DNA of 64,000 nucleotides from NCBI GenBank assembly GCA_039566865.1, contig CM076951.1, positions 16,501,484 to 16,565,483 of the forward strand. The letters are read 5' to 3'. Positions 6,322 to 49,080 of this stretch are shown here, piece by piece. A model generated the notes under the pieces. That model ran no database searches. It worked only from the letters and a program-made list of their open reading frames with translations, and had not been told where the DNA came from. The stretch comes from Aurelia coerulea (Eukaryota; Cnidaria; Scyphozoa; Semaeostomeae; Ulmaridae). The translations under genes and the position numbers were made by a program. How positions within the stretch are numbered: the stretch's first letter is position 1; every line of letters begins with the position of its first letter.

Positions 6322-7767
6322 GTACATATAAGAAACTGCAGCCTGCCAGCACAGAGAATATTTTCTCCTCTATAAGAAACCAGCCAGCCTGATTTTTTCC
6401 CCAATTTCTTATAAATGATGCTAAATGGAGAAAATCTTCTAACAAAACTTAAACTTTTTCTCAACTGAACAAATTGAACAAAAACAGCAATACAGACAAC
6501 AAATAACTTTTCCTATATAAACCAGTTTTAAAAAGAATAGTCTGCAAAACCTTCTGGTTGGATTAAATTGTCATCACTGCCATCAGCAGTCATAAGTAGT
6601 CCTGTTCTCTGAAACGGTTTCTTTCTGTTACCAGGATATTCAGAGTTAATTACTCCCATGCACTACCTAACCATTCAGTCAAAATAATTCTCCTTTCACT
6701 TGCACTGAAAGAAGACTGCCATTTCTCCAAATTATCACTTTCTTCTAGATGTTTATCTAGTTCCTTTCCCATCAATTTCTTTATCAGAAATCCTTCTCCT
6801 TGATCAATAGGCTGGCACTTGTCAGTTTCCTCTGGAGGCAATGGGTAAACAACCGTTGATGCTAATTCTCTGCAAGTTGCATGAAATTCCTCTGTCATCT
6901 GACAACCAAGGTTATCCAAAAACAATACATTTTCACTGCTTTTATCAACTGCTGGAGCAAATGACTGCTTGATCCAGTTTAGTGCAACAGAACGATCCAT
7001 CCAAGCATTCTTTTGCCAGTACACATGTACTCGCTTGTCATATGCATCTTTTTCTATTTGGGAAACATTGCCTTTTCCCCTGAAAATAATCGCAGGAGGA
7101 ACATGTTGTTCATCTTCTGGACTTATGCATAGCTGCAGGGTACATTGTCTCTTGTCTAGTCCACTACCTGGTTGGGAGATCCATACACTGTTGGTGCCTT
7201 TCTCGTCATATGTACTTTGTTGGTCGATGACAAATGGACATGGTACTTGATCCACATTGTATCTTCTTGTGGGAACCCAACGGCCCCATTTGTCATCAAG
7301 CTGAATTAAATCATTACGTCGCCTTCTTGATTGGACATCTTTTCTTAGCTGACGATTGAAGGATTGAATAATAGGAAGCTTTTCAGTGTTACCAATCTTC
7401 TTCTTATTTGTTCTGCGACGAAGAGAAATAAAATTCCTCTTAGAAAATCTGTGCAACCAATTTTTGGAGCCTTTGAAGTTGTCAGCCACTTCGTCACCAT
7501 AAAATAATCGCAATGATTGTCTCATCTTTATCTTCAACCATCTTCCTCCTACTTTCAATCCTTTAGATCTGTGTTTTCTGAAGTCAGATAAAAGTTTCTG
7601 CTCTGCAAGTGGGTACTTTTTCAAGTAATAATTCCGCATACGCCGTCTTGTCCGCCCAGTCCCATTACTGTCTGCCCCAATTCTCTTCCTCTTAGCTCTT
7701 ATTTTATCAGCCTCTTGTTTCGGATCTTGTTCCTGCTTACTCCATTTCCAGACCATGGACTTAGAAA

Positions 7768-16411: not shown

Positions 16412-16587
16412 AACTTATGACCATTTGACAGATGAACCGGCGAAACTTTAGGCCCTTCGTGACAGGCCAGTGTTAAAAAATGCAGTGCATGCTAGTTAGT
16501 TTCACAGTGAGGTCAAGTCAAAAGGGTTTCGCAAACAACATCAGCGAGCATCAGTGACACTGTCTCTGGACAGTAAGACTTTTGAAA
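16412..16587. promoter_or_regulatory. Divergent intergenic region between transposase and HIRAN-like gene
   Basis: The 176 bp separate the two divergent starts, so any promoter here would have to serve both directions. I see no convincing TATA box. The call rests on position only. Confidence 0.4.
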
Positions 16588-17058
16588 ATGGTGGATAATT
16601 TCGTGTTTTTCTTGGAAACTGTGGTTAGAGGTTATCATGCGTATTTGTCAACATATAAACTGACACTAGGCGAGATTTTAGTAATCACGCCGGATCCAGA
16701 TGCAGTGATGCATGATAAATATGTGATGAAGTATACAACAAAGGAAGAAGAGCACATTGTTGGGCATATTCCGAAACATTTATCTCGACGTTGCTTCAAA
16801 TTCATAGAAGATGGTGGGGAGCTAGATGCAGAAGTGATTGGTAAAAGGTTCAATGCTGGAAATGGCATGGGAGTTGAAGTGCCAGTTGAATTAAGTTTTG
16901 TTGGAAACAAACAATACTTGGAGAGATTCAGGTCAAAAATGATCTCAGCCATTAGGGCAGAGGAAAAACTGAATTCAAGCACAAGCAATAAAGTTGTGGA
17001 AATTAAGTTGAAGATTAAATTTCCAACTGAAATTGAACTTTGGGAGGAGGACATGTGA
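16588..17058 (+). CDS. HIRAN-domain-like protein carried by the Tigger element
   Basis: An intact ORF of 156 residues starts at ATG 16588 in an AAAATGG context. The pattern VVRGYHAY, GEILVI, DAVMHDKY, EEHIVGHIPKHLSRRC follows the HIRAN-like arrangement (an RGYH start, an acidic DxxA/Y strand, then VGHxPxxxSR). The region after it (IEDGGELDAEVIGKRF) continues the fold. HIRAN domains of HLTF/RAD5-type proteins bind DNA ends, but many short metazoan HIRAN-like proteins have no assigned role. The gene lies wholly inside the transposon, divergent from the transposase, between it and the right inverted repeat, and unlike the transposase it has no stop or frameshift. It is either transposon cargo or a gene the element relies on. 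Confidence 0.7.
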   Translation: MVDNFVFFLETVVRGYHAYLSTYKLTLGEILVITPDPDAVMHDKYVMKYTTKEEEHIVGHIPKHLSRRCFKFIEDGGELDAEVIGKRFNAGNGMGVEVPVELSFVGNKQYLERFRSKMISAIRAEEKLNSSTSNKVVEIKLKIKFPTEIELWEEDM

Positions 17059-18915: not shown

Positions 18916-19277
18916 TTTCTACAGGTTTGCATTGAACCATCCAAGTCATACACAATGTAAAAAACTGAATGGGAAGGCCATCATTTTGTTGCAAAAAAGA
19001 CACATTTCACGAGGTTGAAGCTTGTTTTGAAAAGAATCCTTGAAAACATAGTGAAAAAGCTTAACAAAATTATTTTCAGAAATCCCTGAAATCCGGGGAA
19101 ATCCTACTAGAAATCTTTACCAAATTTCGAGGGATTTCAAAAATCCGGGAAATCTCGTACGGTTTTTTTGGCTTGTGATACACCCTTCGAACTGAACTGA
19201 ACGGTAGATCACGGCAAGAAATACACAAATTTCATCGTGTTTTTTAAGACGTAATCTGCTGTTAAAGGTCCAGTTTC

Positions 19278-19673
19278 CTATGGGGGTATATGTATGACAA
19301 AAATCCATAATGCAGAAAGACCAATCCAAAGGTCTGATTCGGACAGTTTTCAAAACTCGTTTTATCAAAATGTCATTCCTCAGTTACGCATTTCTGTTTG
19401 ATTCACTCTTTTTGGTTTATGACTGCCTAATTTGATTTAGTAAATGCAGTTTTTTGTTTATAATTAAATTCATCATTCAATCATTCACCAAGGCAATCTG
19501 TTGTATTGAGCTCTTTGTTTGTAATTCAACTTGCTGTCAGTCATGCATGCCAAGAATAAGTCGAGTGCAGTTTTCGGTCTATCGTGCAGTTTTCTGTTTA
19601 TCATTCAATTCAATATCGATCGAGTGCAGTTTTTGGTCTATGATTCAATTCAATATCGATTGAGTGCAGTTTT
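19278..19673 (+). repeat. Left 396-bp inverted repeat
   Basis: The same length as 34837-35232 reverse-complemented, with no indel and one substitution seen (GATTGAG versus GATCGAG near the inner end). The inner part repeats a GAGTGCAGTTTTTGGTCTAT unit about three times. TTTATAATTAAA near 19456 could act as a TATA-like element. Confidence 0.93.
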
Positions 19674-19820
19674 GTCTTTTATTCAACCATAAAGCCAACC
19701 TGGTACCATGACGATACGGTTATCTCTGGAATAATCTTACCCCCGTTCCAAAATGTTTCCCGCCTTCAACATACTTGTTTTGTGAAAGAGCGCCAACCAA
19801 AGCAAATTCGCAAATTCATC

Positions 19821-22800
19821 ATGGGTGACCAAAGACAGGCCCTGTCCGCCCTGTTGGAGGAAGCAATCCGCATTGTGGGCACGGGCCCATCTACCAGCAG
19901 AGAAACTATCAGGTATGAATATAACGATAAAATGGTTTGTTAGCTTCTGTTATTAGCTGCAGATACAAAGAAGTGTTCCATTCTGCAACACACAACCAGG
20001 CGAGGGGCGTGTCACAGCTAAAATTCTCGTACACCTTTGGTCAAAGTCCTTTTGTTTTCAAGAAAAATCTCTAATAATCGTATTGTTTTTAAAAATCTCG
20101 TACGCCTTTTCGGAAGAGTGATTCACCCCTCGCATGGAACCCCTGCAGTCTTCTTTTCTTGAATTTTTGCGATTTACGAAGAGCTCACACATAAGCGCAC
20201 GAAGGGGGGCAGGGGGCAGCAGCCCCCCTCCAACTTTAGAAAAATTATCGAAAATGAGCCCCAATCGGGCAAAAGAATGCCCTCAGTCGGGCAAAAATTA
20301 TTCTAAACAATGGACTTTGTGTTGGGCAGCCCTAGATTTATTCTCCCTGTACGCTTATGAGCTCACATCTACTACCATTTTATTACAATTCAAAGTACAT
20401 TTTCTACAAATTAGAGAGAAATTTTGGCATCTTTGCGCTGGGAGAGGGGGGTGACAGGGTAGTGGTACCATGGTACCAGAGGGGGTGGTACCTGGTACCA
20501 AATTCTAGAAAGATGGTGGAACCTGGTACCAAAAGAAGTGGTACCGGTACCCAGCCTATAGGTGTTGGTACCAACAAAATGTTTTGTCAATTGATGTTTT
20601 TGGAATTCTTTGAACAGCTTTTAACAGTACAAACAAAGTTTCAGCTTAGTGGAAGCGATGCAACGTCTGCGACGTGCAGGTGCACAATTGCGTTGTCTTG
20701 CAAGCACAGAGTTGTTGCTGTTGTTGTTATTACATCGATTATTTCCACATCAGTGGTTATTTCAGAGAGAGTACAATACAATTTCGCGCCAGAAGACAAC
20801 AGCAACCACACTCTTTGGAATGGGATTGGATGAAGCTCTGGGAGCAAGTAAAAAATAAGTGAAAAAATTAGGGGCAAGGGAACACATTTATGAAAATCAT
20901 ATTCGTTAAGCGGGAAACGAGGCAAACGAGCAGAAAAATAACAAGGGTTCAAGGAGACTTTGCTCCCATCTGGCAGGCCTTCCATTTATGGTATACTAAT
21001 GTAAAATCGGTTTTTTCTAGCTTCTTTTGTTGGAACTACCCTCCTGGAATCATCCAATGTCGATTGATCAGTTTATAATTTACCTGATCCTTCCACCATC
21101 TTTTGGAAAAGCAGATAAATTTTTTAGGCTCATCTGAAAGTCTATACGGAGCCCCCGGCGACCTGTCTCCTTGATGAATTGAAATAATTTGATAAGATTC
21201 TCTTTTGTATATTCCACAACTGTAGGCTTGGTTGCTTTATCCGTTTTTTAAACAAACAAAGCAAGGTCATATGTCACAGAGACATCAATTTCATGCCATG
21301 GAAAAGATACTGGATACAATAGGGGACATGATAGGGGACATCAAAGATAAAATAGGGGAAACATTTGGATTAATGTTATCAGGGCCAATATTTACTCTTA
21401 AATTGAAAGGGTAGCAGAGAAACCGAATTCCAAGTGGAAAAATTAAGAACAACAACAGCAACAACAACGGTTGCACGAATGTCCCGGAATGGGAGTACTC
21501 CACTTAAATTTGTCATCATTCTAATCCCGTGCCCTTCTCAAACACAACAGGCCTCGTCCACAATCACAGGATCGAGCAGCAGAAAATGTCAGGTAATCAA
21601 TGCATCTTTTTACTTGTTTACACTTTGTGGTAATTTATTTTTCATTTTTGCGTCCACATATGCAACTATATTTCAATAGTATATTTGTAAATTTAACAAT
21701 AACATTTTACAGGTAAATACCTACAACTAAATTTACAAACATATCTAACCAAGAAGAAACAAAAGTAAGGTTATATAAAGTGAGACGAACGAGAATAAAA
21801 TATAAGTTGGACACTGTGAAACGTGGGGTTTGAGTTATTAACACTTACTTTAATTTATTAAAGGAAAAAGGTGCAAATTTTTGCACATGTTAATTTCATG
21901 CAATTTTTTTTATCATTATTTTATTTAACGTTGCATTGAAAGCAAAATTTAGCTCAAACACTATCTCCCATGGGCGTTTTGAAGCGGTCAATACCTGGAG
22001 GGGTAAAATTATCTCTGTTGTTCTCGTTGCTAGATTTTGAGTTATGATTATTATGATTACTACCAACACGATTGAAACAATGAAGTGAGGCTAGACTGAT
22101 TACAATGAGTCCCCGTAATCGCTATTCAAAACGAGACTACTACACCAACCGAGACCGCTCATACTGGAGCGTTACGGCCATATAATCAGTCTAAAGTGAG
22201 GCACTAAGTTTAAATGTTTTGGTTTCAAATCGAGTTGGATATCATCAAATACACGTGTAAACATAATTTGGCATACATTTGAGATTGATATCTGCAACAA
22301 TTTAAAAAAAAGTATACAAATTTTGTTGACTGCACAGTAAAAAGTTGGTTACCATGGTTACGATGCTATATTTAGCACTTTGAAATTTTCACCATTCGAC
22401 ACAGTATAGATATAAAGTCAAAGAAGCGGAGTCTTTGCATCCTGCATTGCATATTTTAGCATTGGCGAATAAAAGTTTGGTTAGGGGGGGGGGTGGAATC
22501 GTCCCCCCATGTGAAATAGGGTTAATCATTAAGTAACTATAATTGGCAAATTGTTACAAACAAATGTAGCAAATGCACTATATAACGTGTTCCCTTCTCA
22601 AACACAACAGGCCTCGTTCTCAGATGCGTGCAACACAGGATCGAGCAGCGGAAAATTTCAGGTAATCTATGCACTTTTTTATCGTTTCCTGGCACTTTGT
22701 TATGATTAATTAGAGGAACTTTTTGCACATTTGCGACAGAGCTTGTGGCGTGTGCCGATTATCGAGCAAACTTTATTTCATGTCGGTATCACAAACTTCA

Positions 22801-25800
22801 TGCAGTGGTTTTCATAAGAAAACTTAGGGGTATCCAACTTCTGCAGATAAACCAATCAGTGAGCAGGATCGTCCAAGTCAAGAAAATTGTTCACATAAGC
22901 CTTTGTTCAACCAGATGTGAAAAGTGACACGGTAAGCAAACTAGGGGGTCGCATAAAAAATTCAATCAGTTACTGCGAAATGAGATTGCATAGCCAAGCC
23001 AGCCCACAGGAAGCCCAAATGGATAAATGATAGATGTCATTGTTGGCCGACTGCTGGTGTATGTGCAGCTCTATTCAATAATGATCAGTAAATTTTTCAG
23101 AATGAAGTCAAACATTATGATTTACCTTTTTAAAGCATCAATGTTGTTTCTTTGTGTATCTAACTCTTGTATTAATTGCAAAACAAAGCAGCATTCTCTT
23201 CACCCTAACCTCCGTCAGGTCTGCTATTTCTTCTTCCGAAGTCAAGGTAGCCAGCCGTATACTCCATCTGAAGTCGAGGCAACTATACTACGTCACATAA
23301 CGCTGAAGGAAAGTTTTTCAAAGACCAAACCTGAAAATCGGTTTTCTTCGATCTGCACGCAGGCTAATATTCAGTCGTAGGGACCGTATTAAAAATTTTG
23401 TTTTTGCAACTTCAATGGCCAGCAAGGCATTCTGAAAAGATTGAAATGTTCTTCTGTTTTTGCAATCGATCTCATTTGTCCCTAGCTTATTTAGCCTCCT
23501 GTTGAGGAACGTGGCCCCCTCGTTTGTGCATTTCCAGTACATGAACAAGTTTTGATAGCCATAGGAGGTATAAATAGTTTGATTGCTCTTACTGTTGACA
23601 GAAGATGGGCATTATGCAACTCTACCTGGTACTGCAATTAAACTGGAACTCTATCCATAAGATGACGTTGTTACAAACTTTAGATATAATCCCCTACCTT
23701 TAATTGTAGGAGATACTTTCCAAGCATCAATGGTTTGCGGCATACGCCATATTCGGCCAATACGAGTCGAAATAGACGAGTCAACGCAGCCAACGGCAAT
23801 AACCGCCCACGATTTCCCACAAGCGCAACATGGACCCATGATGTATGTGTACTTGCGTCAAAGGATGACAATGAGACCCCGACAAGAGAGCAGCTTGACC
23901 AGTTAAAGTTGTCTGGACTTGGGAAGAAGCGATTGGTGTTCAGCAAACATGGAGACCATGGCCACTTCATCAAAAAGCTTGAAGAAGAGTTCCCCAAGCT
24001 AGCTAGACTGCATGGAGGAATTGAAGTTTTACGTGCATCGATTGGTGGGGCTGGGCAAAGACCATTGACAGTTGTTCCACTTGGTCAAGGTGGTTATTGC
24101 ATTCCAGAGCTGAAATGTGCATTTGCTGGAGCAGGTTTATTTGTGAGACCAATGCAGATTGACCTCGATCAGTCAGTTACGGAGACCAACACCACACCAG
24201 CCTTTGCAGTAGACTGTATCCACTGTGGATCAAATGTTCCATTGAATTCCTTACGAGAGCACCAAGAATCTTCCGAATGTTTGAGTGACATTGACGATGA
24301 TGTTCTATTGGTAGACGCTGTACCTTCAAGTAACCCAACCTCAGAAGTCGATGACGAAGCGCCAGGCCCAAGCAACGCCGCACTTTCCAGAAACCAAATC
24401 TCAGAAGTTAACGACGAAGCGCCAGGCCCAAGCAACGCCACACTTTCCAGAAACCAAATATCAGAAGTTAATGACGAAGCGCCAGGCCCAAGCCACGCCG
24501 TACTTTCCAGAAACCAAATCTCAGACTTCAATGATGAAACACCAGGCCCAAGCAGCTCAACGGATAATGCTCGTGACCTAAACAGAGAAGTTGAAATTCT
24601 GAGCGAAATGTTCCCACTCATAAGCAAACCTCATCTTTTGGAAGTCACTAGACGTAATAGAAGTATAGATTCTGCTGTTGAAGAGCTCATTCACCAACCG
24701 AATGTAACAGCCGATACCTCCCTGACATTCAAAACAATTCTGATGAAATTGAAAGGGTCTGTTGGTGAAGAGGAAGTGAAGCTCACTGTTCATCGAGATG
24801 ATGTATGGTGTGGAATGCTTGGCTTCTACAAAAAGGCGATCAGAGATCCAGCAATTTTGAATAGAAGGATTCACACAACGTTTGACGGTGAAGACGGAAT
24901 AGATCTTGGTGCTCTTACTATAGAATTTTTTCATTTGGCTTTGGAGGAAGTAAAGAAGCGCTTATTTCAAGGACCCATTACAAGAGTAGTACCGGTAAAA
25001 GACAAAACACGGCAAATGCTGTTCCAACTAGCAGGCATGCTCATTGGCCATTCAATAAAACTTGATGGGCCTGGCTTTCCATGCCTGAATCCGGCAGCAT
25101 ATAAATACATTGCAGGGAAGATTGAAGAAATAGAACAACATATTTCAAAAGAAGACATTCCTTTGACTGCAAGCTCCGAGCCAGTGTTGAACCTAATCGA
25201 CGCACTAGATGGATGCTCTTCGCAGGATCAGTTGGCCTCATGCCTTGACAGTGACACAAATTGGACACTAATAGCAGCATCACACTGGCCAGATACACAG
25301 ATCATAAATACTTCAAACAAAGGTAGGCTAAAAGTGATTTAAGACATTAGGGACCTGTCATAAAGTATCCACTATGAGGGGCCGAAGGATATAGGTAGGA
25401 GCCACCAACAATTGTGAGTGCTTGCTAATATTTGAAACTTTTTACGGCCCACTAATTTCTTTTGTACAAAATCTAACCAAAAATAGTTTGCCTAGAAGAT
25501 ACTGCAAAGTGTAGACTTTAAAGTCCCAAAAACAATCAGTTGTCAGTCGTAATCAGAATCCAAAGAAAAATGTTCGTGGCTGGTGTAACCGGTTTGAAGT
25601 CTCCACTTATTTCCATTCCTATCACATAAGATGGACATAGTTTTGCCTGCTTGAATTGTATCGTTTTCTGATGCACATCTGGTTCTATATACATTCACAT
25701 TGTTGTGCTCCTTCAATCCTTATATCTTTACGAATGGCTTCCTTGTTAACATTTTTATGTTCTATGAGAGAGTGCTGAAAGTGCCTCAAGTTGAGAGATA

Positions 25801-28800
25801 ATCAAATATAGTTATAGAAAGAATTTTGATGTCGTGATCAAAATATGCATCATGCAAACGAAGTGCAAAGAGAAGAGCATCTTTTGCTAAAAACAACCTC
25901 AAAATTATAGAGTGAAATGGGCCACAAAGATCATTCGTCTCTTCACTAGGGGGCAAGGAAATGTTTACTCCTGTTCAATAGGGCCTTTGAGAAACGTTTT
26001 TGAAAAAGGTCAAATATCCTCCGCCCTTTGTAGTCGATCACATGTCCCTTTGTATATCATCCAATTAGTATAGAGGTGCATTTTATGCTTTGTTAAGTTC
26101 AGAGGATATACAATGCAAGCAAAATTTACTGTTCATCAGCCAAGTCCAGGATCTAGATCGTATGTTGCATTAATGAGATGAATTTTCAAGGGCATTTGAA
26201 GTAAATTTATTGCAATTTTCAAAATCTTTTCTTATTCTGATGAAATTATGAATAAAGGAAGTTTGAAACGAGTCAAACCGCCTCAGAGTTCTTTAAGTTA
26301 ATTTGAATACTGCTACCTTGATAAGAGCTCAAAGCACCTTAATGCAGTTTCTTACATTTGCGAAACAATACTTTAAATAGGTGCTATTCCACAACAAAAT
26401 TGCAAATCTAAAGTCGTAAAGTTTGTTGCAACCATTTTGTCTATATGTCTATGTCTACCGGATGAGCCAGAAAAAAGTTCCCACTTTCGACTGGCCAGGA
26501 TAAATAACAACTAGACCAATTTTAGTAGTTTCTGTTTTAATCTTTTGTCAATACCCTATATTATTCTGAGTTATTTTTTGTAGATTTTTCAGTTGCAAAT
26601 TTACAAATTTAACGATTTCTTGAAATTTTTTGGCCTGCAAACTGCCCAAAAAGATCGAAAAGCAATGATCAAATTTCCTAAAGATTGAACTTGGCAGAAC
26701 AAAGGGAGTGCTCTTCGAAATGACTAGGGAATTTGGAAATGGATTACGTACAATCTGTCGCACGAGCGGTCGTTCAATGATTGCACAAGTTTAATGTAAC
26801 TTTTATTAGTACAAAGACTCTCAGTTGTTTTATCTTTTCTTTGAAATTATACTCGATAGCTATGTAAATTAGTGCATGTTGGGAATTGAAAATATTTCAA
26901 ACAAGGGTGTAGATTTAGGACTTTGTGACGCGAAGACCTGCTAGCCGCGCGTTATTAGAACTATTCTTGACGCATGCAAGCCTTTCATTCAAGGCGCCTA
27001 GCAAGTGCAGTTCTTCCTTGAAGTATTTCAAGGACATTTTGCTTTATTAATGCGTTGTTTGCTCTCATTTTCACTCAAGTTCGCTTTTTGTTTTGATATT
27101 CCTGTTGGCCTAAGAGCGGCAAATATCACGTAGGCCAAAATTGGCAGTAGACGATATTTTTATAAGAAACTGGTATAAGAAACTAAGTACCACGATGAAT
27201 AAAATTTTAAGAAACTCTAGCACTACGTTCAAGAACAATTAAGAAACTCTAAAATTCTTTTTCTAGAATACGAGTCGGTAGATTACGGTTCGCGCAGCAT
27301 TGCGTGTGTGAATATAAAGTTTGGACTGCCAAAATTGGCAACTTTTTGCCTTTATGTGCATATTGCTTATTAGTGGTGACAATATTAATGCAGAAAAGGA
27401 CAGCCTTTTGTCGAAAAGAAGGCTCAACTTCGAACCATAACACAATTTTAGACCCCAAAAATAAGAAGCTTATCAAGAAAATCTTACCACTAAAACACTG
27501 AAATTTTCATGCGAAATTAGGAAACTTCTAGTACTATGTGCTGATCCAAGTTTCTCAAACAAAAAAACGTGTAGCAACTTTTGAAAACGATGCTTCTCTA
27601 AATTAGGCAGCGAGAAGCGGAGGGGCACAGCTGAGTTTACTTTGGAAAAAAATGGATGAAAAGCTGGGTGAAGGGCAACTGACAAAGTCGTTTCTCTATT
27701 GGAAAGTTTCTTAACTTTCAGCTGCAGTGCAGATAATAATGAATGCTCATTTTGAGCCGAAAATTGACGAAAGAATAATCAGATGCCCAAATTTAGGCCT
27801 GGGTTACACGATACCGGATTGCTTTTCGCATCGGATTGGTTTCAACCCAAATTGCACCATTTTCATTGCAGTTACACGACACCGGATTGCCATGAACCCA
27901 TTTTTGATTGCAGTTACACGACACCGAGTCACCCTGCACTGCGAAGTCTAAATCTATTATCTTTGACAACTGCGAAGCCCAAATAGAGTGGGGTTACATC
28001 GGATTGGTGCAGTTACACGAGCAAACGGAGTGGGGTCACACCGGATTGGTGCAGTTACACGAGATGGAATGCGGAGCGGAGTGCATCGGATTCATTTTCA
28101 CCTCACCTCCAGAGCGGAGTGGTTTCACTCCGCGAAAACGGAGTGGAGTGACACCGGATTGCCTCGGTGTCGTGTAACTGCACCCCCCTATCCGATGCGA
28201 AAAGTAATCCGGTGTGTGATGAATCCGGTATCGTGTAACTGGGGCCTTAGTGTAAGGAAAAGGGCTCAATTTCTTGATTATTTTCGTCTGGGATTGGTCA
28301 CATCAAATCGATAATAAACATAATTTTCGAGTTCAAAAGTTGCTACTGGCCAATTTCGGCCTACGTGACATTTGCCGCTCTTAGGCCAACAGAAATATCA
28401 AAACAGAAAGTGAACTCAAGTATAAATGAGAGCAAATAACGCATCAATAAAGCAAAATGTTCTTGAAATGTTTCACAGAAGAACTGCACTTGCTTGGCGC
28501 CTTGAATGAAAGGCTTGCATATGTCAGGAATAGCTAAAATAACGCGCGGCAATCAGGTCTTCGCGTCACAAAGTCCTAAATCTACACGTTTGTTTGAAAT
28601 ATTCTTGTGTGTGATTTATCCTGGCCTGCTGAAAGTGGGAACTTTTTTCTGGCTCACCCGGTATGTCATAGTGTTCAAATGTTCATAATGTTCAAATTTT
28701 CATCCCTAAAAGAAAGAGCCATGTCGCTTTTTTTCTGCACTGGTGCATCAATTGATCTCTTACTTAAAGAATAATATTTTCTTCCTTTAGCTGCTGTAGT

Positions 28801-29326
28801 TGCAAACCTTGTCGAACATGAATTGCTTTGGAGCAGGAAGCAAGAATTAGATGAGTTTTCCAAAGGTTTAGATCGCGCAGGGATCCTGCCGCTGCTTCAC
28901 TCGCATCCAGATGCATGCGAAAAGCTATTTTGCTACAATGACAAGAAAGGCTTTGGCCCTGCAGAATTCGAGTCCTGTATAATCAGAGAGCCTCCAGCTG
29001 ATCACGAGTATTCAAAGAAGCACGCATACAACTTGTTTAACAACTATATATCAGAGAACATTGAGTCAGAGAGGTTCCCTGGCGGGTCAAGATTAAGAGC
29101 TCTACTGAGATTTGCAACTGGATATAAAGATATTCCGCCAAGTGGGCGGCTGCCGCAGCGCATCACAGTAGAATATCTGGAAGACGATGACGAGTACCAG
29201 CTGCCAATGAGCCAGGCATGCTTTGGAATTCTACGCATACCAACAGTGCATGCGAGCCAGAAGAGGTTTGAAGATATGATGGATGCCGCTTTGGCGATCG
29301 AAAGCATGGGCTTCCAGTGTATTTGA
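19821..29326 (+). CDS. G2E3-like HECT-type E3 ubiquitin ligase with CUE domain
   Basis: Exons 19821-19912, 22611-22661 (or 21551-21592), 23710-25322 and 28791-29326 all have GT-AG borders and join in frame, giving about 763 residues. The N-terminal part has the LxxAGLG/KKRLVF-type region seen in anthozoan G2/M-specific E3-like proteins, then a Cys-His cluster (CIHCG, SLREHQESSEC; 24217-24282), four 20-residue repeats (EVNDEAPGPSNA type) and a CUE domain at about residues 338-376 (LSEMFP, SIDSAVEELI), which would bind ubiquitin. The HECT domain fills the C-terminal 340 or so residues. The catalytic Cys is in QACFG at about residue 719, 44 from the end, with the usual hydrophobic tail. It would take ubiquitin from an E2 and pass it to a substrate. 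No damage is visible. Exon 4 lies 3.5 kb downstream across an intron full of repeats. Confidence 0.88.
20458..20575. repeat. GGTACC-rich short repeat
   Basis: At least eight GGTACC-type hexamers (TGGTACCATGGTACCAGAG and similar) occur in 120 bp of HECT intron 1. It is locally palindromic. No function is visible. Confidence 0.75.
21551..22661 (+). other. Duplicated alternative exon 2 of the HECT gene (21551-21592 and 22611-22661)
   Basis: Both exons follow the same acceptor context CTCAAACACAACAG and precede the same donor CAG|GTAATC. They are 42 and 51 bp, both multiples of three, both entered in phase 2. They encode RPRPQSQDRAAENV and RPRSQMRATQDRAAENF. Either alone, or both together, keeps the frame into exon 3 (RYFPS). 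This is a tandem exon duplication that allows mutually exclusive or inclusive splicing. Confidence 0.8.
24342..24560 (+). repeat. 60-bp coding repeat in the HECT gene
   Basis: Four copies of a unit encoding EVNDEAPGPSNAALSRNQIS, the last diverged. It keeps frame and is acidic and Pro-Ser-rich, so it is probably a flexible linker between the Cys-His cluster and the CUE domain. Confidence 0.9.
26458..28661. mobile_element. 2.2-kb mariner-type nonautonomous element in HECT intron 3
   Basis: The ends CCGGATGAGCCAGAAAAAAG and its near reverse complement are flanked by TA. The arms continue for several hundred bases (shared GGCCTAAGAGCGGCAAATAT and ACTTGCTTGGCGCC regions), the left one split by about 390 bp of unrelated sequence near 26520-26910. 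The centre holds another MITE and a piece related to 10140-10500. No transposase frame is seen. Confidence 0.8.
27796..28246. mobile_element. 451-bp MITE with TTA duplication, PIF/Harbinger-like
   Basis: The ends GGCCTGGGTTACACGATACC and GGTATCGTGTAACTGGGGCC are flanked by TTA (27793-27795 and 28247-28249). The body is built from GTTACACGACACCGGATTG and GCGGAGTG words. A 3-bp TTA/TAA duplication is typical of PIF/Harbinger elements. Noncoding. Confidence 0.8.
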
Positions 29327-30092
29327 CATGCAGTGTATTTGACACTCTATGGTGACGGTAGTGTTTATCGTTATGTGATATCGGTTGCATAACTTTCTTT
29401 AGGTCTCTACAAAAGGCGGTTCAGTGTTTTGTCTTAAAGTGCTTGTTTTTTGTCTTAAAGGAATCCAAAATGCTACAAATAAGACAATGGGTTCTTGTTC
29501 GTTAGAAGGTAAAAAGATGCCAAGCCTCTTCCTTGGGCCTAAGGAAAATATAATAGACATGTGATATTCTGATAGCTATTTCAACAGCTAGATTCTGACA
29601 AAAGCCAAAACGTAGCATCGAAGTCAAACTTTTGTTTATCAATGAAATCAAGAATGTTGATATATTGAAGTTGTCTCTACAATTTTCAAAAAGGTGCAAG
29701 TTTCTTATTGTTTCAAATTCACTTTCTTATTTGGATATAAACATTAATTTGTGGTATACTGGTGAGTTTAGATTTGCAGAACTGCGAAGCTGTATCTTTT
29801 TACCTATCAAACACATTATTCAAAAATAAAACAGCTAACACTTTATGATAGATACATTTTCCAAGGATCTTTGCTGCTATTTCCATAGCTGAAATGAAGC
29901 TATGGCCGTTAGGCAACGAAACTTAATTCAACAGGTGTTGGGCATATACCCCTTGAAAAATCTTCATAGCATGCTCAACAGTCTGCACTTAAAGTAAAAA
30001 TGCACAAAGTCTTCACTGTATATGATCTGATACTAAGGAGAGTCCAGGGTCCAGGGCAATTATTCAGTGTCAGTTTGTTTACTCCTCGAGTT

Positions 30093-33000
30093 TCAAAAAA
30101 GAAAACCAGCACTTCCTCCAGTTCTATCTGCAATGTATCGGACAGCTTGTTCGTATATATCAATTCCGAATGATGCACTTTCTTGAAGAGGATCGAATTC
30201 TGACTGCATTTGCTCAAGGTCCTCCTGATGCAGAGGGCAGTTGATTTTGGGAGTCTCAATAGATTCTTGAATATTATCTAAGAGTGGAAGTGGTCCGTTC
30301 CAGTCAATTCCAAACAGGTCCTCTGGTCCCTAGAAATACACATGCACACATAGTTAGATATAAGATTAGGCATTTCTGTAACAAACAAAGATCATTCATC
30401 ATTGCTTGCTACAATATCCATCAGGTAAAAACGGCAGAAATAACAATCACAGAACCGAAGTGTTTGTCTAACCTTAGTGAAGGGATAGTGCTCTTCCAGG
30501 TCTCTAATTATACGGCAACCGTTTATCGTTGGTGAAATCATTCGTTAAGTTTACGTGTTATATTAAGTATGATAATTTGTCGGGGAGGGGGATTCTAAAT
30601 ATATGTTTCACTAGACGTGCCACCAAGGTTTATGTAATTTTAGACCAATTTCCCAATCTCAATGTTTAGCAAATTTATGAAATTTCAATTTTTTTTAAGG
30701 AATTGTGCGCTTTCCTATCAAATAGAGTACATGTCTTGGGATTTGTCTCGGAAAACAGACCTCATATGTAACGAATTTCCGGTTGAATAAGTAAACAATT
30801 TTGATGGCACGCCTAGTATTTTGAAGGATGAGGTACACCTCCCTGGCAATGTTTTTTGATGCTGAATTTTACGATGAAGAAATAATAGGTTTTCATATTA
30901 TTGAGGTTCTTGCTGGCTTTCCATTCCCTGATGATGTTTGGAGCGAAATAATTGCGCGTTATGCTTTAAAGATATCATTGTTTAGCTGATAAAAAAAAAC
31001 TGTTGAAGGTCGATAACATGAAACAACTAACTGCTCTAGAATTTAGAATAATAAGGCTACTATCATTGTTACTGTTATCAACACCCTGCAAATCAAAACC
31101 TGTTTCCAGTGGCTCCTGTCTTGTAACCGTCTTCTATTGAAAACAGGATGACTACCAACGATGGTGCAGGAAATCATTCAATCTTTTGAAGGTTAAAAGT
31201 TACTTTGCTTTTGCAAAGAGGCATTTTTGACACAGGGAAGATGTTCCAGAGATGAAAAGGGCAATTTGGAAAAATGAGGTTGATAGTGTCCCCGGATTTC
31301 AAGAGAAGTCAAATAAGTTTTGATTGCCATTTCCGAAATGAACTTGACTTGCTACAAGTCTTCGTTTGCCTTCTATTCGTATTGTCATGGTGTATAGTTC
31401 ATACCGCGCCGGAGGCGAACGAGCGCGCAGCGCGAGGGCGGCGGAGGAGGGGAAGAACGAAGACTTGTGACTCTCGGCAGCCTAAAAATAGTACGGACAA
31501 GATTCTGTCCGCGGCTTTTCCTTTGAAGTTTTGAATAAGCCAATCACCATTTATAATCATTTTCAACATCAGATTGTGTCAGGGGGTTGCCAGAAACGAT
31601 TTCTTTCTGGTCCGATTGAGAAATCACCGTCCTTCTTTTCACTTGTTAATCCAATTAGGGACAGGACAAAAAGAATTTCCGTAAAGTATTAATTCATTTG
31701 AACCCCCTTGACTGATCCTATTGTTCAGTTCATGCAAACAAGATCCAATTATGAATTGACAAGGGTCACAAGTCTCAGTTTCTCTTCCTCCTTCTGACTC
31801 CTTCATTTAGAACCCTCTCATCTGAGGCCTTGGCACTGTCTGCGATTTATACTGAGACTTGTAGCAGTTTCTCTTCCTCCTTCTGACTCCTTCATTTAGA
31901 ACCCTCTCATCTGAGGCCTTGGCACTGTCTGCGATTTATACTGAGACTTGTAGCACTGCTTACTATATTTGAAAGAATCTGTCTGAACGACCCAGCCGTT
32001 CTTTGCACGCATTTTCAAACAGGCACATAGGAAGAAACTCTGGTAGGAATTTTTTTACAAGGCAAGTAACTCAAATAGTGAACGTTGAACTTTAATTTAA
32101 AGAAACTTTTCAAAATTTTACGTCATTTTACCTGCTTTAATGTCCTGGCCATGAGTACTTGTACAGCATATTAAACCTGATTGAGATTAAAGTGGAAGGG
32201 GGTATTAAACTGGTCTAATACAGCTAGTCTGAAGCAAAAAATTCAGCAGGATATAATTAAAATCTGACCATCATTTCTTCTGCCTGCAAGTTCTCTGTTC
32301 GGGATCTTGTCATCCACAACTGAAAAGGACTTTTGTTGTGCTCTGTTGACAAAGGATGCATGTCCCATCCATCGGAAAACATCTCCATGTGTCTGTTAAT
32401 TCGTGGTATAAATACATAGTGCAGGGCGAACAAATGCATTTCATTGGAGATATCGAGATAGCCATGTTCTTCCAGATAGCAGAAAGCATGATAGAAAAAT
32501 GTGGTGCAGCCTGTAAATAGATCCCTCCACAACCTTTCGATTCGCTGGTTATGGCAGCTCTTGCCTGCAATGAAGCTGCCTCTGTCAGGACCCCTGAGGG
32601 GATGGTTGAGAAGGTACCAGGCAACATCCACATTCTCTGTCCCTTGATCACCACGCACTCTTGAGGGCAGGCCAAACCTTGTCACTGCTTCTGTAAACAG
32701 TTGAAAAACCGTTGCTGCTCTGTTGTTATCACTGCATCTCAAGAACATGATGCGTCGTGTAGAACCATCTATACATCCATGAATGACTATGGACCACCTG
32801 TAGTAGTAATCAGAAATGAGAGTGCCAGCTCCAGCTACATACAAGGGGTGGGTACACGTTCTATGAAAATGTGGCAAAAGTTTCTCAAGATTTAGGTAAC
32901 AGGGCAAGGAGCTTTATGCACCGTTAATAGATTGAGTACATGAGCCTCCGGCTGCGTTCACACGATGCCGGCACATTTTGAAAATGGTGAAAAATTTGAC

Positions 33001-33705
33001 GGATGGGCCTCCCGTGCAAACGAAAACAACACATTTTTTGCCGGAAAATTTTGAACATGGTAGATTTTGAAATCGAATCTGTAACCGGCACATTTTGAAA
33101 ACGGTATTTTGCTGATATCGTTTGAATGCTGGCTCCAATGCAACATCCGTTTTCAAAATGTGGCAGCAATGTGTAAACGCAGTATCAGTTTTCCGCATTG
33201 GATTGTATGGTTAGACTGAGACTCATGACAACCACAATACATCTCTGCATGAATTCGGATAGAGCAAATTAGATCGCTACTCTCAGGAAAGTCAGACTAT
33301 TTATCTATTCTTAGCGCATGAATGGTTGATTAGATGACCGTTGACAGTGACACAGTGAGTGCCGTTGAATTTTTCGTTCGCCATTCGAATGATAGAAGAC
33401 GTTCGAGTTTCTTCAGCTTTTTGTCAGATTTATGTTTGGGCGTGATTCATTCATCCGACCGAAGTATCTATCCTCCGTAGGGGGTAAATTTGGGGCTATT
33501 TTTGAAGTGAAGTTGGCAAGAAGACGTAAAAAGAATTGGTAAAATTGCAAAAATCAGGATTTTTCGGGTTAAAATCCGCGCTAAGTCGAGCAAACATGTT
33601 GGTTAACAATGGAGTTTGTTTTCGGCAACCTCGCGTCTTCCCGTATGCTTGTGCATTCGTGCAACCCTTAATTGGAATATCATTCTTCTTGAGCAACATA
33701 ATCAT

Positions 33706-33769
<64 letters not shown>

Positions 33770-34584
33770 TCATAATCTGACCAATGCAAAAAGCAAGCTA
33801 TTTTGGATAAATTTCTAGAATCTACCCAAGTTGAAAATATATTCCCGCACCCAGGGTAGTGAGCGAAAACGAATCTATACCTTATTAGCTTGTGATTGCC
33901 GTCCATATGCCAGAGGGACAGTGGTCCAGCCACGGAATATGATCTCCTGTTGATGAAAGTTCTTTGGAGTGACCGCAAGAGAACACCTTCGGGATCATTT
34001 CTCCTCAGCGATGCTCGGACCCTCTCCCATTGGACTCGTATACCTCTGTGCAGTAAAAACCCTTGCATTCTTCTCACACCACAGTTTGGAAATTCATGGC
34101 AAACTGCTCGTACAACTTCGTCAAGCTCTTCATCAGATAATAATGTATATCGAGGGATTTCTTCTCGTAGATTCAATGCTTCCATTCTTCTTTGGATAGT
34201 TCTCTGGCTGACTGAGAAAAATTGTGCTATTTCTCTCGTTTTGAAGCCGTACTCCAAGAAAAATGTGAGACTGTCTTTGTCAACCTGGAGACGTGGCCGC
34301 CCACGACTGCCCTCATTGATGATACATGGCTGCAGAGAGGCGCTGTCCAAAGGTCTGCTCAGAAGCTCTAACGCTCTTTGAAGTACGGCCAGCAATTGGT
34401 TTGAGACTGGAAGCAAATATTCACCTTGAAAAATGATGTCTATAAGGCTCTCTAGTCGTAACAAGATCACGTCGCTGTCATTCCCAGCAATAGTAAGTCG
34501 TAACAGATCTTGTAGCCGACGCTGCACATGCCGAAAAAGCAAGTCTGCAGGTGATGTCCTGGGCACATCGTTCTCATACACCAT
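30093..34584 (-). CDS. Integrase-core (DDE) transposase-like protein, three exons
   Basis: Minus-strand exons 34584-33881, 32797-32269 and 30329-30093 join in frame to about 489 residues. The N-terminal half has a helix-turn-helix near residues 108-140 ([20 protein letters not shown]) and a second HTH-like segment ([15 protein letters not shown]), an arrangement reminiscent of IS3-type transposases. The catalytic triad is complete: D228 (WHMDGN), D285 (RGDQGTEN) and E322 (QRIERLW), giving DD36E. The C-terminus (GIDWNGPLP to GGSAGFLF) matches the tail I remember from this family. The intron 1 junction is clean (ATAAG|GTATAG); intron 2 uses a weak donor (ATG|GTCAGA), and read-through would end after VRF. 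The protein would cut and join DNA ends. No lesion is seen, so it may be active or domesticated. Confidence 0.82.
31777..31954. repeat. 89-bp tandem duplication in integrase intron 2
   Basis: AGTTTCTCTTCCTCCTTCTG through ACTGAGACTTGTAGC occurs twice back to back, with no difference seen. It is a recent local duplication. Upstream, 31405-31470 is an unusually GC-rich block (GCGCCGGAGGCGAACGAGCG) that I recognise only as repeat-like. Confidence 0.9.
32947..33186. mobile_element. 240-bp MITE in integrase intron 1
   Basis: The imperfect inverted ends are GGCTGCGTTCACACGATGCC and GTGTAAACGCAGTATC. A CCGGCACATTTTGAAAA word is repeated inside in both orientations. Noncoding; no clear target duplication. 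Confidence 0.65.
33709..33768. repeat. (AATC)n microsatellite
   Basis: About fourteen uninterrupted AATC units in integrase intron 1. Confidence 0.97.
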
Positions 34585-34836
34585 GTCTGCTCTTGTTTCT
34601 TTGCTTGCAATTCAATTGCATGGTTTTATCATCGAGTAGGACGGAGATATACTAAAGCCCCCTGGCCAAGAGACAATCATCAAAAGCCTTTCCGATATTT
34701 TTCTCTTTCCTGTATTGATTGAATACCGCCCAAAAGCCACGGGGGAAAATTATCCTAACAGGAACATGTGAATTTCATAGATTGAGCGATGAATTGAATT
34801 ATAGAAAACAAACTGAATGAATTGAATGATAGACCA

Positions 34837-35232
34837 AAAACTGCACTCGATCGATATTGAATTGAATCATAGACCAAAAACTGCACTCGATCGATATTGA
34901 ATTGAATGATAAACAGAAAACTGCACGATAGACCGAAAACTGCACTCGACTTATTCTTGGCATGCATGACTGACAGCAAGTTGAATTACAAACAAAGAGC
35001 TCAATACAACAGATTGCCTTGGTGAATGATTGAATGATGAATTTAATTATAAACAAAAAACTGCATTTACTAAATCAAATTAGGCAGTCATAAACCAAAA
35101 AGAGTGAATCAAACAGAAATGCGTAACTGAGGAATGACATTTTGATAAAACGAGTTTTGAAAACTGTCCGAATCAGACCTTTGGATTGGTCTTTCTGCAT
35201 TATGGATTTTTGTCATACATATACCCCCATAG
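34837..35232 (-). repeat. Right 396-bp inverted repeat
   Basis: Reverse complement of 19278-19673. The integrase start codon lies 253 bp inside its inner end. Confidence 0.93.
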
Positions 35233-36514
35233 TTATGAGATCTTTAATGTTTTCATTGTACACCGCACGTGTAAAGAGGACATTTTTAGGAGATTAAGCG
35301 TTTCGCAAGTTTAAATGCATAATTTTTCTGGCAATTTCACAGTAGTTTCCATTGTACGTGTTCATTGCGTAGCAGTAGGCCGGTATTCTATGACGTATTT
35401 TTCTCTGCGCAATATATCTATTTTAGAGTTCTAGAAAAAGAAAATTATCTTCTCTTTCGTTTCGCTCAATTTAACTACAATTGTTGACCATTTGAGATGG
35501 CCCTCCATTTTCACGAGCGCTTTCTCCGATGAAGGAAAATAGAATACTTGAAACGGCAGTAACGATGCACCAACCAAGAAACCTATCATTCCCATGATGT
35601 CATCCTAATTTGTTTTTGCAAACATGCATGTAGCAGAGACGAATTGAAAAGCAATGTCAGGGCATGATGATATATAAATATACTCATGAATCATAAGATA
35701 GCGGACGATATCTAAATTAATATGACAGAGATTACAATACACAGGGTGCACCATAAAATAAACTTAGAAAACTGCAATGTAAAATTGAGTACTAGGATCA
35801 AAGGACAATGATATAAACGCTGTTTTGTAGCTAAACAGCAAGCCTGCATCATCACTATTTTGCTATTTTCATCGAGATGAAAAGTTAGTAATAATAATGA
35901 TTTTGCCAATTATTGATTTCTATAAAGATCACATAAAAAGGATGGCAATGTTGGTAAGTTATTTAGCTATAAAGACATTTTAAGTAACTTCTTTCTAGCC
36001 TTTCGCTATATTTTCTCCCACAACTTTTCTATGTCGCACAGATAAATTTTATCAAAACAGAGCCAACGAATTTAGCATAAAGCTTTACAAATACTGCAAA
36101 GTAAAAGTATGAATTACACAAAAAGGCCCATATTACTACAATCAGTGGTTGCAGGGTTCGTTTTGCGTAAGAGAAGCCACAAATATTGCAGGAGTTTCAA
36201 TGCCTATTAGACCTTGAAACATTGTCTGAAGGATGGATAATCTTTGCCATTAAATCTTTAGTTACATTATTTACGTGATTGCAATGTATGTGAAGACAAA
36301 ATTTTTGATTAAATTTCTTCTACTGGGCCAGTGGAGAAGCTGATCTGTGAAACTCCATGCTTTGATGTTGTCTTTTAATTCATTTTCAACTGCGATAAAG
36401 CTATATTCTAACCAAAGTAATACCCAGCCAGTTCGCAGGACGCAACGTCACAATAACATTGAAGACACGATTATCTCTCAGAGACATTTTGTACGTACTG
36501 TACCCGTTGAGTTA
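35233..36514. other. No recognisable gene
   Basis: AT-rich; only short unremarkable open frames. A CAGGGTGCACCATAAAATAA word near 35741 resembles a mariner-type end, but I found no partner. Confidence 0.5.
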
Positions 36515-46037: not shown

Positions 46038-47005
46038 TCAAAGCGTGGTACTGTTAGAGAAAAGAGAATTTTGAAACTTGCTTGCAGAATTAACCACTGA
46101 ATTGTTGTAATGTTTCTGCCAAGTAGTTTTCCCTGACTACTGACCCCTTTTCAAATGTCCTTCAAAGAGCATCCCTCACATTTGGCTTTAGAAATGGATG
46201 CAGATCTACTAGAATGTGCCTTAAAAATGTTTATGTCTACCCCTGAATTTTCAAGCACAGCTTTTACCCAGCCTGAAATTGTTGATTTGGCAACCTCATT
46301 ATGAGGCTGGATTGTACTTAACAACAATTGACATTTGCTGCCTGCCCGCCATTGCAATGACCTTTTTAAATAAATATCAATAGCTGACACAACGCAAAGT
46401 TTCCTTTTTGATTCTAGTTCAAAAAATTCCAAGGATGGAGGGGGTTTTCCCTTTTTCCAGCTTTTGCTCACCTTTGTAAACTGAAAGATGTAGGAAGTGG
46501 CAGACCTTGTCATATACCTGATATCTAAATTTTGAATCTCTGAGCACCTACATGCTGCAGCCAATGCAAGCAGCATCGTTAACTTCAATGTTAACAGGCG
46601 ATCTGATAACTGGTCATTGTCTGGTAAATCATTCAAATATGAGAATACCTGTTCCACATCCCACACAAAAGAGTATCATGGTTGTGGTGGTTGTTGGTTA
46701 AATATCCCGGTCATCAATGAGGATACCCTGGGGTGTTGGCCTACTGGAATATTCTCAATTGGGTCATGGTATGCTGATATTGCAGACCGATGACGGTTTA
46801 TGGAACTGTATTTATAATCTAAATCATACAGTTCGGCCAAAAAGTCCAGCACAAAATTTAGAGGGCATTTAAGGGGATCAATTTGTTGTTTACTACACCA
46901 GCCAGACCACTTTCCCCAGGACGATTCGTAATTAGCAAGCGAACCTTGTATTCTGGCATTTGTGATAAGTCCTGCAGCCTTCTCTGATATTCCCTCGTTT
47001 GCCAA
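46038..47005 (-). pseudogene. DIRS tyrosine recombinase
   Basis: Two overlapping frames carry the enzyme. The N-terminal part (47005-46676) has a SAM-like core-binding region (GSLANYESSWGKWSGWC, INRHRSAISAYHDP). The catalytic part from 46666 has the Arg of CRCSEIQNLD and HSSR near 46190. At 46154 a one-base loss gives a stop; the restored frame reads LKRGQ, a TAG where Trp is expected, then SGKTTWQKHY with the likely nucleophile Tyr, ending at 46038. The enzyme would insert the circular DNA copy. Frameshifts and a nonsense change make it inactive. Confidence 0.85.
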
Positions 47006-49080
47006 ATTTTTCCTGAAATTTCCAGGCCACCAACTTTAGGGACCCATTTTGTACCAAAGGATGTATCACTCCTTGTGGATCGACTAACAAGTTGGAAACT
47101 ACTGGCAGTAACATTGGATTCTGTACTGACATTTGTAGTAACTGTCCGTACCATGGTTGTGTTTGCCAAGCAGGGGTTATCAAAACCATGCAAACTTTCT
47201 CCACCCTTGCTTTTGCAATCACTCTCCCAATCAGAGAAAGTGGAGGGAAAGCATAAGGGGCGAGTTGCGACCACCTTTGTTGCAGTGCATCTGTGGCTTG
47301 ACTGTATGGATCTGGTCTGCAAGCCATATAGGCTGGGACTTGATGAAAAAGTCTTGAGGCAAACAAATCCATGTCCAGACGAATTTGTTGAAAAACTTGT
47401 GGGGAAAGCAACCATGTCCAGACGAACTTGACAAATTTGTTGAAAAACTTGTGGGGAAAGCAACCATTCGCTGGAGTCGTGGAAATGTCGAGAGGCTATG
47501 TCCGCCTGCGTATTCAAGACCCCTGGGAGATATTCTGCTGTTATTTTGATCTGTTTCTTGAGCAGAAAGTCCCATATTTCCTTTGCTATGGATGTTAACT
47601 CTTTGCTGTGGGTACCGCCCATCCTGACAAGATATGCTAGGGCTGTCATATTGTCCATTTGCAAATGTACTGCTGACATCTCCCTGATTTTTGAAAAGGT
47701 GAGCAGAGCAAGATGAACTGCCCTCAGTTCTAATAAATTGATATGTTGACTGGACTCCTGAGAAGTCCATTGCCCCCCTACTGATTGTCCCAAGCAATGA
47801 GCACCCCAGCCCTTCTTGGATGCATCCGTTTGGATGACTATCTTCGCAGTGGGGAGCACTATTGACCTTCCATTTGTCAAGTGAAGGTTGCTTATCCACC
47901 AGTCTATTTCCTGTAAAGATTTTTGATTTAATGTTATGTAAGACTGATATGTTTGGTTCAGTCTCAAAGATTCTATCAACTGTTGTTGCAGGTATCTCAG
48001 TTGTAACTGTGCAGGCAAAACTGCTTGTGCTGTTGAAGACAGTGTGCCTATTAGACTGGAAAGTCTCCACACAGTTATTCTGGGGTTCCCCTGTACCCAT
48101 TGACACTGTCTTGTAAGATTGTTGACTTTTTGTTGGGGAAGATTCAGTGTCATGTCTAAGGAGTTGATCTCCATTCCCAAAAATTCTATTCTCTGCACTG
48201 GGGTCAACTGTGATTTGGTTTGATTTATCAAAAAACCCAAATGCTGCAGGAGAAAGAGCAGAGTGTCTCTTGCCATATGCATTTTCTCCACTGACTGACA
48301 CATCAACAGCATATCGTCTAAATATATTATTATCCGAATGTTTAAACGACGCATCAGGGCAATTGGTAGTTTTAGTAGTTTGGTAAACAGCCTTGGTGCT
48401 GGCCCAAGGCCAAAACAAAGGCACAGAAATTGGTAAATGTTGCCTTTCCATTGGAACCGAACATACTTCCTTGCTGTCTGATGCAGTGGAATGGAGAAAT
48501 ATGCATGCTTCAAATCCACCTTGCTTAGATAATCCTTCTCCTGGAGCATTTCCTTCAGGAGATGGAGACCCTCCATTTTGAAATGTAGGTAGGGTAGGTA
48601 AGAATTCAGATTCTTTAAATTTAGAACTGGTCTGTTTCCCTTGTCTTTCTTTTCGACAAGGAACAGATTGCTTAAAAACTGGTCCTTGCGAGACATGACT
48701 TTTTGAATAGCCCCTTTCCTCAACATGGCCTCTATTTCCTTGTCTATCAGGGCCGACTGCTCCGCATTCATTTTGGCTTGATGCGGGGGTTCGTTTTGAG
48801 TTGGTTCTTCTACAAACGAAAGTCTTAATCCTGATACCAGTTCTAGGATATCTGGATCTTTTGTGAGAATTTGCCAGTTGTTTACAAAATACTGCAGTCT
48901 TCCGGCAAGGGGTACCTCCTTTATTATTTGAAGAGGAAAAAGCCCCTTTATTATTGGGTGAACATTGTTTAGTTCTGTTACCGCAATAATTTCTGGTCTG
49001 TTTGTTGTCATGTTGAGGAGAACAAGGTTTAGTTGATACCGATGAAAATCTGGCTGCAGAAGAGGACTGATTTGATTCAT
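46932..49080 (-). pseudogene. DIRS reverse transcriptase and RNase H
   Basis: The RT domain is intact from 49080. LVEKKDKGNRPVLNLKNLN, DLKHAYFSIPLH and the catalytic YLDDM (residues about 253-257) are clear. RNase H follows (VIQTDASKKGWGAH, LELRAVHLAL, MDNMTALAYL, QADIASRHF). Near 47384-47450 a 51-bp tandem duplication (GTTGAAAAACTTGTGGGGAA unit) disturbs the frame; the C-terminal part continues in another frame at 47411-46932 (ASRLFHQVPAYMACRPDPYS, then PWYGQLLQMS). It would copy element RNA into DNA. Confidence 0.9.

Follow-up and report, generated by a model that had tools for sequence, protein, structure and literature searches.

Transposons of the IS3EU superfamily are bounded by TA..TA ends and usually flanked by a 6-bp target-site duplication (PMC10045372), with termini of the form TAYGG..CCRTA, and in the fungal members that are positive for TET an alpha-kinase gene lies opposite to the transposase gene, with a TET/JBP gene in between (PMC12730594). 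The window analysed here, a stretch of 64,000 nucleotides from the scyphozoan Aurelia coerulea (GCA_039566865.1, contig CM076951.1, positions 16,501,484 to 16,565,483), contains a unit of 15,953 bp (19279..35231) in which long terminal inverted repeats enclose the genes of a predicted HECT ubiquitin ligase and of an integrase. We read this unit as a two-gene IS3EU transposon from a lineage with a HECT E3 ligase as a regular second gene that faces the integrase tail to tail, and give this reading a probability of roughly 85%; it is carried by what is observed of the ends, the gene content, the 6-bp duplications of sibling elements, the empty sites, the convergent linkage, the co-divergence and the intact frames. 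An earlier reading, made without database searches (the sequence-only reading), had proposed a new transposon with the ligase as cargo. The DNA transposon, with the integrase as its likely transposase, stands, while its novelty does not: as the ends, the duplication length and the integrase family match published IS3EU elements, the unit is, judged by its sequence, a real mobile DNA element of this known type and not a new type of transposon.

A repeat scan of the window returns two inverted arms (19278-19673 and 34837-35232) of 396 nt each, 15,163 nt apart, which differ in the arm-to-arm alignment by a single mismatch at position 384, much as had been described from the letters alone. Their length is to be corrected by one base. 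In the animal's own genome, the single genome searched here directly (574 Mb in 294 contigs), the repeat has 52 matches, of which 13 begin at query base 2 and 6 at base 1, the window's own arms accounting for two of the latter; as these starts favour base 2, and as TATGG opens each of the six siblings that possess a perfect duplication, the outermost base pair (C19278/G35232) is flank and the true inverted repeat measures 395 bp. The left repeat (19279..19673, plus strand) starts with TATGGGGGTATATG, the right one (34837..35231, minus strand, one mismatch) ends with CATATACCCCCATA, and the termini of the unit read TATGGGGG...CCCCCATA, i.e. TATGG...CCATA; the 20-base end occurs only twice within the window, with 0 occurrences expected (100 shuffles). 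Subterminal 40-bp repeats (GTGCAGTTTT..., 19444..19663, plus strand) and the corresponding ones within and beside the right arm (34790..35077, minus strand), found by the same scan, are candidate transposase-binding sites. Between the arms lie the HECT ligase gene on the plus strand and the integrase gene on the minus strand, both intact as spliced models and, as proposed earlier, convergent and starting shortly inside the repeats, with start codons 148 bp (HECT) and 253 bp (integrase) inward from the inner repeat edges.

Both genes are predicted from splice signals and homology. The integrase model comprises 489 amino acids (aa) and three minus-strand exons, all compared with a second copy of the unit (on contig C19, see below): the first (33881..34584) encodes a helix-turn-helix (HTH) and the first catalytic Asp (HMDGNHK), the second (32269..32797) the second Asp (RGDQGTEN) and the Glu (QRIERLWRD), both exons being backed by profile matches, and the third (30093..30329) the C-terminal part. 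The protein matches PF24764 at 4.2e-79, and rve (1.4e-6) and HTH_21 (5.5e-5) below their curated cut-offs; a zinc (HHCC) domain was not reported by the Pfam profile search of the window integrase, which has the features of an IS3/IS481-like DDE integrase lacking that domain. From the triad given before (D228, D285, E322), D228 is correct on the 489-aa model, and the spacing of the second Asp and the Glu is as stated, with 36 residues separating them. The second integrase intron contains a perfect 89-bp tandem duplication (31776-31953).

The HECT ligase model comprises 777 aa and five plus-strand exons, namely exon 1 (19821..19912; 100% identical in the C19 copy), exon 2 (21551..21592) and the similar exon 3 (22611..22661; similarity from the repeat scan), both compared with C19, exon 4 (23710..25322), which on profiles and relatives encodes a conserved N-terminal region, a C2HC finger region and the start of the HECT domain, and exon 5 (28791..29326), which on profiles and the alignment with E6AP encodes the remaining HECT domain, the catalytic-type Cys (LPMSQACF) and the stop. 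With a HECT domain (PF00632, 1.8e-12) and a C-lobe Cys that aligns with the Cys of E6AP, the predicted protein possesses what characterizes a HECT E3 ligase. The catalytic Cys is kept in 10/10 ligases of HECT-integrase pairs that reach this position, while 3/13 stop before it (two open reading frames (ORFs) of the own genome and a Rhopilema gene model), and the Cys and His residues of the C2HC finger, for which one sibling ligase gives a weak match, are invariant across 29 aligned relatives of the element-type ligase. Two labels of the sequence-only reading find no support in the window protein. A CUE domain was not detected in the window ligase by profile search, one sibling giving a weak hit below the cut-off (E 0.013). 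The G2E3 family is defined by PHD-type fingers together with HECT, and the window ligase has no PHD or RING match at E <= 1 in the profile search. Upstream of the HECT domain the coding exon holds a 60-bp (20-aa) tandem repeat (24315-24554), and the last HECT intron harbours one or more nested inverted-repeat elements (26456-28663), with arms at 26891-27145 / 28349-28603 (89%) and 26456-26509 / 28610-28663 (91%).

Further copies and empty sites, which had been named as what to look for, both exist. The C19 copy possesses all eight exons of both genes, each 99.4-100% identical, with no stop and no gap, and is flanked on both sides by a perfect 6-bp target duplication (CGTTTT). It is inserted in a satellite, an adjoining unit of which can be aligned over the point of insertion for 238 nt at 91.6%; as this neighbouring unit spans the joined flanks and contains the target once, it represents an empty site of the complete element. 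In the C19 copy, a 6-kb insertion (L009 727-6746) interrupts the left repeat, the pieces of which have 9 query bases (173-181) in common and may thus include a 9-bp duplication.

The window copy itself has differing flanks (GTTTCC / GTTATG) and no target duplication, a weak point that the sequence-only reading had conceded and that is real, but explicable. A search with the joined flanks places the left flank (19210..19278, plus strand, query 232-300), which is the target as it was before insertion, as far as the element, and the right flank (35232..35531, plus strand) in the same high-copy repeat, which resumes 171 bp beyond the end of the left flank. The right flank has 38 other matches at 96-99% in the own genome and the left flank 36 listed ones outside the window, and the gap between the two is exactly 171 bp in 34/34 paired empty copies, two of which were also inspected as sequence. 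This count used 34 of the 36 left-flank rows; the two left out had short left matches, C21:3599518 giving 171 by hand and C7:13098499 falling 11 bases short and lying 176 away from the right flank, and two further right-flank matches have no listed left flank. Thus, 171 bp of target have been lost flush with one repeat end of the window copy, inside the high-copy repeat, which accounts for the missing duplication and fits a deletion during or after insertion, and the flank repeat provides the empty site for this second intact copy. The absent duplication was therefore rejected as a sign against a transposon, the flanks being one repeat minus 171 bp. A recombinant of two elements would equally lack a duplication, and the window flanks indeed fail to match as one; however, both flanks lie in one repeat and in register but for the 171 bp (34/34), for which insertion plus deletion is the simpler account, so that recombination appears unlikely.

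The ends of 16 HECT-integrase pairs with DNA at both ends were examined, the window and C19 copies included and a decayed C7 copy (repeat on one side, stops in the integrase) left out. Both inverted repeats with TATGG..CCATA ends are present in 8/16, so that the window unit and seven HECT-integrase siblings conform to the TAYGG..CCRTA termini of IS3EU, and six of these eight, C19 among them, show the perfect 6-bp duplication of that superfamily (TGTTTC, GCCCCC, CTTGTC, AGCGAT, CAGAAG and CGTTTT). The duplicated elements C15 (its repeat aligned in pieces only), C17_386 and C22_106 are close relatives of one another; the six two-repeat elements outside the window family measure 7.0-9.0 kb. Membership in Ginger1 or Ginger2, the duplications of which are 4-5 bp (PMC10045372), is ruled out by the 6 bp found here.

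Perfect 6-bp duplications also flank members of the window's own repeat family on C17 (1.5 kb), C4 (10.3 kb) and C8 (25.5 kb, nested), and a short C13 copy has CAATCG on both sides once its start is shifted by one base; the remaining inspected copies have no duplication at the chosen ends, and several are truncated. On the C4 copy (C4:17155306-17165602, duplication ATTTGC), an alpha-kinase ORF (PF02816, 2.3e-26) faces an ORF that matches PF24764 weakly (E 0.0011, with 19.2 bits against a cut-off of 26, and outside the 150 scored integrase rows mentioned below), an alpha-kinase facing an integrase-like ORF being the plan of fungal IS3EU (PMC12730594). The sequence-only reading had held that a repeat common on its own would count against a transposon, and on this point the outcome is mixed, as the repeat also occurs in 1.5-kb to 25-kb relatives without these two genes.

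The association of the two genes extends far beyond the window family. HECT and integrase loci were taken as linked when at most 15 kb apart, and all counts are lower bounds, as only the best candidates were scored in each genome search. The HECT protein query (58 of 343 candidates scored) gave 71 rows and 51 loci, the integrase protein query (87 of 629) 91 rows and 86 loci; a PF24764 search (150 of 521) brought the integrase set to 157 loci, and a PF00632 family search (129 of 260) yielded 93 HECT loci. With the protein queries alone 30/51 HECT loci have an integrase within this distance, and with the PF24764 rows 39/51, of which 38 are convergent and one overlaps (a merge artefact), with no other orientation, while random placement of 51 HECT loci gives a mean of 0.41 and a maximum of 3 in 2000 trials. 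Among the PF00632 loci 45/93 are linked, all on opposite strands (44 convergent and 1 overlapping, again a merge artefact), where chance would give about 0.75 for a similar number of loci (null for 92 loci and these 157 integrases); in the union of the searches, 55/109 HECT loci and 56/157 integrase loci are linked. The frequent linkage that had been predicted thus holds in this genome. As a control, 4/92 alpha-kinase loci are linked to the same 157 integrase loci, in mixed orientation (null mean 0.75), and alpha-kinases were on these grounds rejected as a general partner of the PF24764 integrases here. Many of these 92 loci (PF02816) have tied scores and frames that are open over 400-500 aa, which suggests that mobile elements of this genome carry alpha-kinases as well, mostly apart from the scored PF24764 integrases. 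An open frame of at least 450 aa was listed for 49 integrase rows (from 55 of the 91; C9:7731829, open frame 467, is not included), 29 of which have a HECT neighbour, and for the window integrase and its nearest relatives (the first 20 listed long-frame rows) the figure is 18/20. The IS3EU lineage with a HECT partner is large and old in this genome and supplies many of its HECT genes.

The two proteins have also diverged together. For 13 pairs, nine from this genome and four from other sources inferred via identical contig size, the distances among the ligases are correlated with those among the integrases (r 0.957, permutation p 0.0001), and with near-duplicates removed r is 0.913 (10 pairs, permutation p 0.0001); C19, near-identical to the window copy, and C22_394 and C22_1062, which have broken frames, were left out. 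In four deep pairs, the proportion of synonymous differences (pS) is saturated (0.77-0.87) and that of nonsynonymous differences (pN) is 0.28-0.47 for HECT and 0.23-0.36 for the integrase, i.e. pN/pS of 0.35-0.61 and 0.29-0.43, respectively. The recurrent pairing on opposite strands and the correlated distances argue for the HECT gene as a second core gene and not as chance cargo; the earlier view of a cargo gene is right in that the gene travels with the transposon, as the C19 copy and the linkage attest, and understates a second gene that co-diverges within the lineage. A host HECT gene captured once, passively carried and functionless for the element has a precedent in accessory genes (TET/JBP, fungi) that pass between transposon superfamilies (PMC12730594), but 45/93 paired loci, each on opposite strands, an intact catalytic Cys, pN well under saturated pS and the apparent recurrence of the pair on contigs from elsewhere render it very improbable.

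Named relatives of the integrase, among the best 120 of 1205 matches, come from cnidarians, sponges, a hemichordate and fishes, and those of the element-type HECT ligase from Rhopilema esculentum and, weakly, Paramuricea clavata. When 116 of the 117 integrase matches that have a stated contig size (among the best 120; P0117, the size of which matches no HECT, was left out) were compared with 41/43 HECT matches, the other two lacking a stated size, four distinct contig sizes were common to both (4,392; 5,151; 1,861,808; 15,264,025), a number reached in 0 of 20,000 trials of a jittered null; the 15,264,025 size is that of Rhopilema with LOC135686279 and LOC135686290. If each is one contig, the sizes 4,392 and 5,151 force adjacency of the two genes, which the two larger ones do not show. 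A viral vehicle was considered and set aside, no relative of either protein being found in IMG/VR with the patterns used.

Several findings weigh against a two-gene IS3EU lineage or narrow it. The inverted-repeat family of the window also bounds other contents, as in the 1.5-kb and the 10.3-kb alpha-kinase copies, the duplication is missing at the window copy and at its sibling C17_433, and 5/16 pairs have no second repeat in the fetched stretch and 3/16 a repeat on one side only. Among the listed long-frame integrases, 20/49 lack a HECT gene within 15 kb, so that HECT is not required by every integrase of the family, and downstream of one of the HECT-less integrases (C3:20447085) no ORF of at least 100 aa is present in 3.7 kb. 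Co-divergence would arise from physical linkage by itself and is no proof that the two genes function jointly; in young copies the ratio of nonsynonymous to synonymous substitution rates (dN/dS) is not significantly below 1 (HECT 0.49, Fisher p 0.39; integrase 0.28, p 0.21), and within the C17_386 family it is 0.49-0.91, with frame-shifting gaps. Linkage outside this genome is derived from equal contig sizes, which are strong but indirect evidence of a shared contig, and not from contig names. Finally, 48/93 HECT loci have no scored integrase nearby, 20 of which consist of at least 2 matching pieces, as expected of intron-rich host HECT genes. Numerous HECT loci, many of them unlinked, would suit host HECT arrays that attract transposon insertions without any two-gene element, yet such insertions should occur in all orientations, while the 45 linked loci are all on opposite strands; empty sites lack both genes together, and in six elements both genes are enclosed by the inverted repeats and the perfect 6-bp duplications, which refutes the idea for those copies and leaves it with hardly any credit overall.

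Under the two-gene reading, the integrase would bind the long inverted repeats, perhaps at the 40-bp subterminal repeats, cut at the TA ends and join them to the target with a 6-bp stagger. As both genes start just inside near-identical repeats, the two may draw on common promoter sequence and be co-expressed, and the ligase may tag a protein that limits transposition. We tentatively place a host repressor of the element first as its target, as somewhat likelier than the transposase or its complex with DNA. That the ligase acts on its own transposase, either limiting its level or removing it from the joined DNA after strand transfer to let host repair close the gaps, much as ClpX removes MuA in phage Mu, is a possibility with less in its favour. 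The co-divergence (r 0.91-0.96) and the strict pairing and orientation would suit a partner that touches the transposase, although physical linkage alone predicts the former, and with the 20 HECT-less long-frame integrases transposition may not always need a ligase.

In the wider frame, the abundance of HECT genes is recast as a mobile-element phenomenon. We find it rather probable that an E3 ligase has become a standing part of a transposon's machinery, co-inherited with the transposase across deep splits, that such elements manipulate protein turnover, be it of host silencers or of their own transpososome, in order to move, and that the HECT expansions here, and perhaps in anthozoans, are largely the footprint of this transposon. 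The earlier suggestion that a transposon explains numerous HECT genes stands for many loci in this genome (45/93), though not under the name of G2E3-like genes. HECT ligases annotated as ordinary genes may thus be transposon genes, the weak Paramuricea relative, for example, being named 'pub2'. With a transposon that apparently encodes a ubiquitin ligase of its own, it can be tested whether protein modification serves transposons to evade silencing or to control their own movement.

Elsewhere in the window, an ORF at 16582-17058 has a HIRAN-domain match just under the curated cut-off (22.8 vs 24.7 bits), and on reading of the translations ORFs at 6650-7756, 46858-49080 and 49732-52800 resemble a pogo-type transposase, a reverse transcriptase/ribonuclease H element and a long interspersed nuclear element (LINE), respectively.

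Compared with known systems, the element ligases share with HECT E3 ligases of the E6AP, NEDD4 and TOM1 type the HECT domain and a catalytic Cys aligned to that of E6AP, and differ from them in their shared N-terminal region with a C2HC finger and in being encoded by a transposon. Ubiquitin-like proteases of the Ulp1/OTU type are encoded by MULE or Ginger elements, which have in common with the present lineage an element-encoded enzyme of the ubiquitin/SUMO world; those enzymes remove tags, whereas here a ligase, as a separate gene, would add them. No description of a HECT-bearing IS3EU element was found in a literature search beyond which lie Repbase and most subscription papers, which may hold such entries, and the main texts of PMC10045372 and PMC12730594 do not mention HECT. 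With IS3EU as described in PMC10045372, the present elements have in common the TA..TA ends, the 6-bp duplications of the siblings and an rve-like DDE integrase with HTH and with no zinc domain of the retroviral type among its Pfam matches, and they are set apart from that description by the convergent HECT E3 ligase, a size of 7-17 kb and inverted repeats of about 290-395 bp where aligned in full. With the TET-positive fungal IS3EU elements described in PMC12730594 they share the ends, the duplication size and a gene for a signalling-type enzyme opposite to the transposase, which is an alpha-kinase accompanied by TET/JBP there and a HECT ligase here. Together with the C4 sibling, which also has an alpha-kinase, this suggests that IS3EU elements repeatedly keep the gene of a signalling enzyme opposite to their transposase.

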